Shown: one piece after another, positions 3,046 through 5,310 of the stretch
Numbering within the stretch: position 1 is the stretch's first letter
Layout: the number at the start of each line of letters is the position of its first letter
IMG/VR virus record: IMGVR_UViG_3300035185_000020
Location: 1 to 25,073 of that record
Source of the DNA: a virus
Length of the DNA: 25,073 nucleotides
Reading direction: 5' to 3' (one strand)
The notes under the pieces: generated by a model
Database searches by the model: none
What the model was told of the DNA's origin: nothing
What the model saw: the letters and a program-made list of their open reading frames with translations, nothing else
Translations under genes and position numbers: made by a program

Positions 3046-5310
3046 TCAGCGGAGCCGCAGTTGCAAGTGCTCTGGGCCCACCGACCGTGCGTGCCCGGCC
3101 AACTGCGCACCGCGCCGCACGGCTCCGAGGAGCTCGCGGACGTTCCCTGGCCACGGATACACCAGCATGGTCTTGTACGCTGCCGGCGTGAACGGCGGGT
3201 CGGCTGGGGTGATCCCAGCGTCCTGGGTGTAGCCGTCGTAGAATCGCCGCGCGAGCGTGTGCACGTCGTCCTCTCGGTCTCGCAGCGGCGGGACCTCGAC
3301 CTCGACCTCGGCGAGCCGATAGAGCAGGTCCGGGCGGAACGCCCATCCGTCACGGACATCGCGGGACGTCGCCGACACCAGGCGGCAGTCGGCGTCGCCG
3401 AGCTCGCACAGCAGCGCCGACTGCCCGGCGGGGTGGAGGTCGCCGATCTCGTCGAGGAACAGCGTGCCGCCCTTGGCCCGGGCCATACTCGCGCAGATCG
3501 ACTCGGCGACGGCCTCGGGCTCGGCCGGGAGCGCGGCGCAGTTGACGACGACGAACTCGCCGCCCCGATGCAACCCCCGCGCGACGTCGCCCTTGCCTGT
3601 GCCGGTCTCCCCGAGCAGCAAGACCGCGAGGTCGCTGTCTCGGACACGCTCGAGCACGGCGAAGATCTCCCGCATGGCCACGCTCGCTCCGTAGGCATCC
3701 CCGAACTGCGTCGCGCTCGACAGCCCAAGGTCAGCGTCGGACACGACCGCCTCGGACCATGTCGCATCGAGATGCTCGCTGGCGTCTTGGCCCCGCGGTG
3801 TCTCGATCCCGCTCGTCGCCGCGAGGACTCGCGACATGTAGAAGCGCCAGCGCCCCGCGACCTTGCGACCCGGAATCGCCCCCGCGTGGGCCATCTTGTG
3901 GACCGTTGCGGGCGACAGGCCGAGACGCCTCGCCACCGCGCCAGCGCTCACCATGTCCTCGCCCTCGGGGTCGTCCGCCTCGGACTCGAGCGCGACCGCC
4001 TTCGCCTGCTCGGCCAGTTGCTCCTGCTGCTCGCGCCAAGGCTCGAAGCCTGGGTAGTCGCGGGCGATCGATGGGTCCGAGTTGATCACTGTCTCGGGGA
4101 GACGCTCTGCGTCGTTCTTGCGCGCCTTGCTCTGGGCCTCGCGCGTCTTCGCCTTCTCGTCTTCGCTCTGCTCCTGTACCGGGCGCAGGGTCACGGTGTA
4201 CTCGGTGGGCGTGACCAGCCGCTCGCCGACGAGGCTGGACTTGTACTTCTGGACCTGAAGTTCGGTGTCGGTCGACCGCTCGATCGCAGGCTTGAGCATC
4301 ATCTCTGCCCAGCCGGCGACCATGTCGTTGTAGGCATCGTAGGGCGCAGCCTTGGTCCCGAGGTTGCCCTCGGCCTCCATTACGAACAGTTCCTTGGGGA
4401 CGCCCGCAGCGCTCGCAGCTCGCAACGACTTGCGTTCGAGCACGTCGCTAATCCCGCTCAGGCTGCGTTCGACCTCGGCGAGCTTGTCGGTGTCGTCGGT
4501 GATCAACATCCCCGTGTTGTCGAGGTCGTTGAGGATTTGCGTGAGCTTGTTCTGCAACGCGACGGCCTCGGGGTCGTCGGGTGACTCGCTGACGAGCCTG
4601 TACCCCGCGAGCATGAGGTGCAGGATCGACTTGCTACGCATGATCTGCGTCGCGTTTTGGTGAGCGCGTACCCAGTCGCAGTAGGGATCGTAGACCCCTT
4701 CGAGCCACGACGGCGGCCATCCCGTGCGACCGTTGATGAACAGCGACGAACCGAGGTTGGTCACGGGCACGTCGGTCGAGACCATGATGCTCAAGCGCGA
4801 CCGGTGGATCTTCTTCGACGCACCCTGGTTGCGAGGGACGAACCACTCGGCGGTCTTGTAGTTCCGCCCTGACTCCGGCTTGAGCGCGTATGCGGACCAG
4901 ACCCGCATGCCCTTGTAGGCGCGGACGTTCTGCAACTCGAGCGGCTCGGTGCGCGACCGGTTGGCGTCGTCGACCAGGTGCTCGACCGCTCCGCCGCCGA
5001 AAACGAAGGCCCACGTCGCGCACAGACGCTGATGCTGTTTGATGCGCTTCGACTCGAGCGCGCTCTGCACGCTGGACCAGTTGTATTTGACGTCCGCCCC
5101 GGTATAGTCCCACCCCGCCTTGGTCATCAGTGTGGTGAAGCGGTTGATCATCTGGCGGATCGTGCCGTTCTGCCAGTAAAAGGCCCACGCGGTCTCGGGC
5201 GCAAGCCAACCCGAGCGGATTGCTGGGCTCCCGGGTCCAAGCAGGTAGTCACCGAGCTCGTCGACGAGCTTCGAGTCCGTGCGCGCAATCTTCTTGGGTC
5301 CGTCGGTCAT
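3046..5310 (-). CDS. Portal protein (DUF1073-like) fused to HTH and sigma-54-activator-type AAA+ domain
   Basis: A single 754-residue frame from ATG 5310. Residues ~1-440 resemble DUF1073-type portals, the ring at the DNA-entry vertex of the capsid: QMINRFTTLMTKAGWDY near the start, then SGISDVLERKSLRAASAAGV and PKELFVMEAEGNLGTKA. An Arg/Glu-rich linker leads to an excisionase-type helix-turn-helix at ~453-505 (AGAVARRLGLSPATVHKMAH, RWRFYMSRV). Residues ~540-754 are a sigma-54-activator AAA+ core: Walker A GETGTGKG (Lys573), Walker B GTLFLDEIGDL (Asp620-Glu621), FRPDLLYRL, VPPLRDREDDV and YPWPGNVRELL. Only 47 residues separate the Walker A Lys from the Walker B Asp, and the GAFTGA sigma-54-contact loop is absent. 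The C-terminal Fis-type helix-turn-helix of classical activators is also absent. An internal ATG at 3954, preceded by GAGG, could release the regulatory half alone. Confidence 0.85.
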   Translation of the reverse strand: MTDGPKKIARTDSKLVDELGDYLLGPGSPAIRSGWLAPETAWAFYWQNGTIRQMINRFTTLMTKAGWDYTGADVKYNWSSVQSALESKRIKQHQRLCATWAFVFGGGAVEHLVDDANRSRTEPLELQNVRAYKGMRVWSAYALKPESGRNYKTAEWFVPRNQGASKKIHRSRLSIMVSTDVPVTNLGSSLFINGRTGWPPSWLEGVYDPYCDWVRAHQNATQIMRSKSILHLMLAGYRLVSESPDDPEAVALQNKLTQILNDLDNTGMLITDDTDKLAEVERSLSGISDVLERKSLRAASAAGVPKELFVMEAEGNLGTKAAPYDAYNDMVAGWAEMMLKPAIERSTDTELQVQKYKSSLVGERLVTPTEYTVTLRPVQEQSEDEKAKTREAQSKARKNDAERLPETVINSDPSIARDYPGFEPWREQQEQLAEQAKAVALESEADDPEGEDMVSAGAVARRLGLSPATVHKMAHAGAIPGRKVAGRWRFYMSRVLAATSGIETPRGQDASEHLDATWSEAVVSDADLGLSSATQFGDAYGASVAMREIFAVLERVRDSDLAVLLLGETGTGKGDVARGLHRGGEFVVVNCAALPAEPEAVAESICASMARAKGGTLFLDEIGDLHPAGQSALLCELGDADCRLVSATSRDVRDGWAFRPDLLYRLAEVEVEVPPLRDREDDVHTLARRFYDGYTQDAGITPADPPFTPAAYKTMLVYPWPGNVRELLGAVRRGAQLAGHARSVGPEHLQLRLR

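Follow-up and report, generated by a model that had tools for sequence, protein, structure and literature searches.

The window analysed here, a stretch of viral DNA of 25,073 nucleotides, carries on its minus strand a single frame of 754 codons (3046..5310) in which a phage portal protein is joined to a helix-turn-helix (HTH) and an AAA+ ATPase. An ORF check bore out this frame, for which the original prediction had given no strand; the plus strand is interrupted by two internal stops. The proposed composition, a DUF1073-like portal, an excisionase-type HTH and an enhancer-binding-protein (EBP) AAA+ in one frame, was confirmed by Pfam, with all domain matches of the window protein exceeding the curated cut-offs. 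The portal domain (Phage_portal_3/DUF1073) occupies residues 43-396 (4123..5184; E 1.4e-33, 116.5 bits against a cut-off of 33.8) and also matched the portal family phrog_146 in PHROGs (8.6e-36), the Pam3, FCWL1 and T1 portal chains in profile searches and, as best Foldseek matches, the T1, FCWL1 and Pam3 portals (prob 1.00).

Behind the portal domain lies a helical connector (residues 397-451, 3958..4122), in which AlphaFold2 places helices at 406-443 with moderate confidence, followed by an excisionase/MerR-type HTH (residues ~452-500, 3811..3957; HTH_17 at 458-494, E 5.7e-7) and a disordered, fast-evolving linker (residues 501-527, 3730..3810; pLDDT ~40, 13-23% identity to the relatives L005, L009 and L016). 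The frame then continues into an AAA+ core of the EBP type (residues 541-676, 3283..3690; Sigma54_activat at 541-671, 6.1e-19, and Sigma54_activ_2 at 541-676, 2.1e-18) and its lid (residues 677-753, 3052..3282; AAA_lid_14, 1.7e-11). Foldseek matched the C-terminal part to the AAA+ domains of PspF, NtrC1 and FleQ, the predicted core aligning with PspF (2c96) at a TM of 0.78 over 231 columns and an rmsd of 2.9. The AlphaFold2 model used, which was based on an alignment with 12 fusions and replaced an earlier one, has a pLDDT of ~95 in the AAA+ and ~84 in the HTH, and is weak in the portal clip region.

The fusion gene sits directly downstream of the large terminase gene terL (5460..7091, minus strand; Terminase_6N, phrog_2), within a late operon on the minus strand. 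In all records long enough to show it, terL is followed in order by the fusion, a small ORF (~40-56 codons) and the gene for a head maturation protease (DUF2213, phrog_530), and in longer relatives a capsid-protein gene follows the protease, with a tail sheath gene also present in L005; the clade is one of contractile-tailed phages, and the family is soil-type. In the window this part (1..1178, minus strand) consists of the small conserved ORF (1056-1178) and a truncated protease gene (1-1059) within which the window ends; it is 53% identical to G054 17119-19383, and its relative in L009 is a phrog_530 head maturation protease. The small ORF (also seen in L005, L009, L016, L017, G051, G052 and G054) is charged, and several copies end in a VVRFG/VVRLG-like motif.

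In six lineages (the window, L009, L077, G051, G052 and G054) an XRE-type HTH gene is found between the fusion and the small ORF. The window copy (1243..1926, minus strand; HTH_3) is 41% identical to that of L009 (6191-6865), and the other counterparts lie at L077 7109-7855, G051 59436-60101, G052 14530-15198 and G054 16342-16887. These genes encode ~220-250 aa, the G054 frame being called as 181 aa, and for that of L077 a weak Cas6 match below threshold (E 7.5e-4) was seen towards the C-terminus.

Several other features of these records were seen. G054 (locus L167) has, downstream of its fusion, a further terL-like frame, partial and 248 aa long (15450-16196), in addition to its full terL (10871-12469). 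Shortly upstream of terL the window encodes an RQC-domain protein without helicase domains (8573-9553, minus strand), which has a 43% identical relative in L005 (6516-7391). Two window genes on the minus strand, 2398-2862, which had no family match, and 21675-22259, have a 52-residue stretch in common at 38% identity and are local paralogues. The records G051 and G052 (~95-97 kb) carry several lipoprotein-like genes, and G051 also an FHA-domain protein (87994-89970, weak Pfam FHA match). From the myxobacterial look of these lipoproteins we would guess that the host may be a member of the Myxococcota; since a single scan of genome contigs yielded two bacterial EBPs only, no host prophage is known.

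When the same fusion was sought in relatives, 12 other distinct, full-length and stop-free fusions were found in IMG/VR contigs: L005 (833 aa), L009 (748), L016, L017 and L018 (779-780), L077 (787), and L083-L087 and L174, with frames of ~790-807 codons. Identity to the window protein was 35-51% among the 11 relatives aligned. A further contig, L002, is 99.99% identical, possibly from the same phage or sample, and was left out of the independent count. None of the relatives found had a stop codon between the portal and HTH-AAA+ halves, and with 12 more distinct frames on other contigs showing the fusion, neither chance nor a misassembly at the junction explains it. Unfused close relatives were not found: portal-only searches returned fused proteins as all of their matches, and among 50 viral records with AAA+ matches a clear PF06381 portal occurs in two, encoded in ordinary frames of 464 and 586 codons. 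Neither a portal nor an HTH-AAA+ match was detected for large-terminase relatives at ~30% identity, no GenBank phage record covered at least 80% of the fusion, and the plasmid matches were EBPs only.

The fusions differ outside their common domains. Those of L083-L087 and L174 have long N-terminal tails ahead of the portal domain, rich in Lys, Ala, Arg and Ser and histone-H1-like, while basic tails of L016-L018 are shorter. The L005 fusion (9968-12469) has an extra insertion of ~70 residues between HTH and AAA+ (residues ~515-595, containing THNMIAHPLM), which is missing from the other aligned fusions.

The two halves of the protein appear to have a common history. In the close pairs formed by L016, L017 and L018, the portal had a dN/dS of 0.16-0.19, as against 0-0.18 in the HTH and 0.10-0.18 in the AAA+, indicating that purifying selection on the HTH and AAA+ is as strong as on the portal. 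In the deep pairs compared, identity was 53-61% in the AAA+ and 40-46% in the portal, which makes the AAA+ the better conserved half of the fusion. The portal tree and the HTH-AAA+ tree have their strongly supported groups in common, with no strongly supported conflict. Together, the selection on both halves, their conservation and the congruent trees suggest, as the simplest reading, a single fusion in the ancestor that has since been passed on whole.

This history bears on the idea that the module is a virion-borne effector, packaged with the head, cut loose by the head maturation protease and delivered into the host, where it would act early on DNA or transcription. Such a protease is indeed encoded downstream, the linker is disordered and variable, and PBECR, 2H, InPase and lysozyme domains fused to portals have been interpreted as injected (PMC5512222). 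Injected effectors nevertheless tend to vary, and polymorphic effector modules are swapped between relatives, whereas here the same module is present in 13/13 lineages, is better conserved than the portal and was inherited with it; moreover, a cleavage site was not identified. We regard this explanation as rather unlikely.

The motifs of the AAA+ half are present as claimed (Walker A GETGTGK, Walker B TLFLDE, FRPDLLYRL and YPWPGNVREL). Walker A (GETGTGKG, residues 567-574, 3589..3612) keeps G567, G570, G572 and K573 in 12/12 fusions measured, Walker B (residues 616-621, 3448..3465) keeps D620 and E621, and the arginine-finger motif (FRPDLLYR, residues 658-665, 3316..3339) keeps R659 and R665, again in 12/12 each. 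With sensor II (WPGNVREL, residues 720-727, 3130..3153; motif comparison across 12 fusions), the switch asparagine and sensor I also invariant in 12/12, the ATPase core is intact.

What has been lost are the loops characteristic of sigma-54 activation. The GAFTGA L1 loop is absent from 13/13 fusions, the deletion mapping by alignment to residues 591-612 (3475..3540), and loop L2 (deletion at residues 631-643, 3382..3420) is missing in 11/12 measured fusions, being retained only by the basal member L077. In the 12 fusions measured, 28-31 residues (37 in L077) separate the switch asparagine from Walker B, compared with 44 in 11/12 unfused viral EBPs (32 in L034), and the L2 stretch measures 14-16 residues (26 in L077) versus 26-27 in unfused relatives; GxFTGA is retained by most of the unfused relatives found in viral contigs. 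With an L2-like hairpin and no GAFTGA, L077 looks as expected of an intermediate of loop loss, one that lets the conversion of a transcription-factor ATPase be traced. The protein also departs from the usual EBP layout, in which a Fis-type HTH is C-terminal: here HTH_17 is N-terminal of the AAA+, and the frame ends directly after the lid, with no C-terminal Fis-type HTH.

These deletions bear directly on the role that the original prediction had assigned to the module, that of a sigma-54 activator, which they do not bear out. A genuine sigma-54 activator mounted on the portal would account for the Pfam Sigma54_activat match and the PspF/NtrC1-like fold, but contact with sigma-54 and promoter DNA is made through L1 and L2 (PMC7175178), and with L1 gone from all 13 fusions and L2 from all but one of those measured we consider this hardly credible. 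The protein is thus derived from an EBP but is no sigma-54 activator. The same loop loss, combined with invariant arginine fingers and sensor II, could instead suit an assembly device, in which the AAA+ ring would drive or proofread the formation of the portal dodecamer or the nucleation of the procapsid, with the substrate loops discarded and DNA binding secondary. The strong purifying selection on the HTH argues that nucleic-acid binding matters, and we judge this explanation improbable.

The regulatory half had also been proposed to be made separately from an internal ATG at 3954. The ATG is there (Met453, 3952..3954, minus strand), preceded by GAGGGCGAGGAC, but as a nested start it is not conserved in the family. 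The motif GAGGGCGAGGAC corresponds to codons of a PEGED sequence common to the window and L083-L087; the Met453 position is CTG in L085 and GTG in L009, L077 has no start codon near it, and L016-L018 have an ATG elsewhere, without a Shine-Dalgarno. We find no support for a nested product as a conserved feature of the family; in the window alone it is possible.

The lack of a conserved internal start is relevant to a further explanation, that the module is a transcription regulator tied to head assembly, in which free portal, or a piece cut from it by the protease, would bind phage DNA and control genes via sigma-70 polymerase like TyrR, letting the assembly state influence late gene expression in return. 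Sigma-70 is indeed the partner of EBP paralogues whose GAFTGA is defective, TyrR and DhaR among them (PMC3162934), an EBP-derived AAA+ occurs here together with an HTH, and the XRE-type gene that adjoins the fusion in six lineages also fits a regulatory module, which counts against the explanation that we prefer below. However, no unfused copy turned up, relatives do not keep the internal start, and the HTH precedes the AAA+, which departs from the usual EBP arrangement. Overall this role is possible but unlikely.

We consider that the portal has probably acquired a second, DNA-handling function. Our preferred explanation, offered tentatively, is that the HTH-AAA+ module handles phage DNA at the portal vertex, as a clamp or assembly switch in the selection, loading or anchoring of the genome. 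The C-terminus of the portal would carry a DNA-binding module capable of ATP-driven oligomerisation, and since the C-termini of portals make up a crown that points into the head, twelve HTH-AAA+ modules would be expected on the portal axis, forming a ring or rings around the DNA path inside the procapsid. In P22, residues 603-725 of the portal reach into the virion interior (PMC5290284). ATP would be available inside the procapsid during assembly, and the ring could bind the phage genome, its ATP-dependent assembly or remodelling helping to select or thread phage DNA as packaging starts; alternatively, the ring could hold the end of the packaged genome. We favour a DNA clamp or assembly switch because the HTH and the ring chemistry are intact and the pore loops are missing; without pore loops, a translocating motor is less likely. 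Counting against this explanation is a subunit mismatch: AAA+ rings of the EBP type are hexamers or heptamers, and a portal has 12 subunits.

The clamp or switch may also stand in for a separate small terminase. Among the fusion records tested, those of 97.5 and 94.9 kb included, nothing scored above the cut-off for PF03592, PF05119, PF07471 or PF08822, and no separate small terminase was recognised beside terL. Small terminases are divergent, so this apparent absence is weak evidence. In 6/7 records the HTH of the fusion was the sole match, weak and unspecific, to the small-terminase family phrog_57; since that model also matches 10/14 control genomes, we treat this as a lead and not as proof. 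The XRE-type gene could itself be the small terminase. A further point against is that small terminases act outside the procapsid, on the terminase side, whereas the portal C-terminus points inward. A packaging vertex with two ATPases, in which the terminase works outside while AAA+/HTH rings on the portal recognise, load or clamp the genome and replace the small terminase, is an idea that we put forward with considerable doubt. Small terminases are described as presenting their HTH motifs as a ring (PMC4737164). The likeness to small terminases (phrog_57, lambda Nu1) lies in an HTH for genome recognition and in genes near terminase and portal; they are, however, separate cytoplasmic proteins, whereas the HTH here is on the portal and is unmatched by the Pfam small-terminase models.

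Portals are viewed as passive DNA channels and sensors working alongside a separate terminase motor, and a clade-wide portal with its own DNA-binding AAA+ would change views of genome selection, packaging and the control of assembly. It would also show a transcription-factor ATPase re-used after the loss of its polymerase-contacting loops. The original prediction knew of no portal with this architecture, and searches of the open literature for portals fused to sigma-54, EBP or AAA+ domains likewise gave nothing relevant.

Compared with known systems, the fusion has the fold of the T1, FCWL1 and Pam3 portals and their position next to terL, but solved portal chains measure 427-621 residues and are matched over the portal region only, with the fusion adding ~300 residues of HTH and AAA+. 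With bacterial EBPs (PspF, NtrC1, ZraR) it has in common the AAA+ core, lid, Walker A and B, arginine fingers and sensor II, and differs from them in the deletion of L1/GAFTGA and L2, in its N-terminal, excisionase-type HTH and in its attachment to a portal. The EBP paralogues without GAFTGA (TyrR, DhaR, HupR and VpsR) likewise have an AAA+ that does not contact sigma-54 (PMC3162934), but they are cellular regulators, whereas here a virion protein carries the domain, which has lost L2 as well. Extra domains on head-vertex proteins have precedents in portals bearing PBECR, 2H, InPase and lysozyme domains (PMC5512222) and in MuF head proteins that carry toxins (PMC5576092); an HTH-AAA+ fusion was not found in the literature searched on either. 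Those effector domains are varied and mostly enzymatic, in contrast to the one DNA-binding ATPase module found clade-wide here. Portals with extra domains are known, and what sets this one apart is that the added module is an ATPase, ancestral and conserved.
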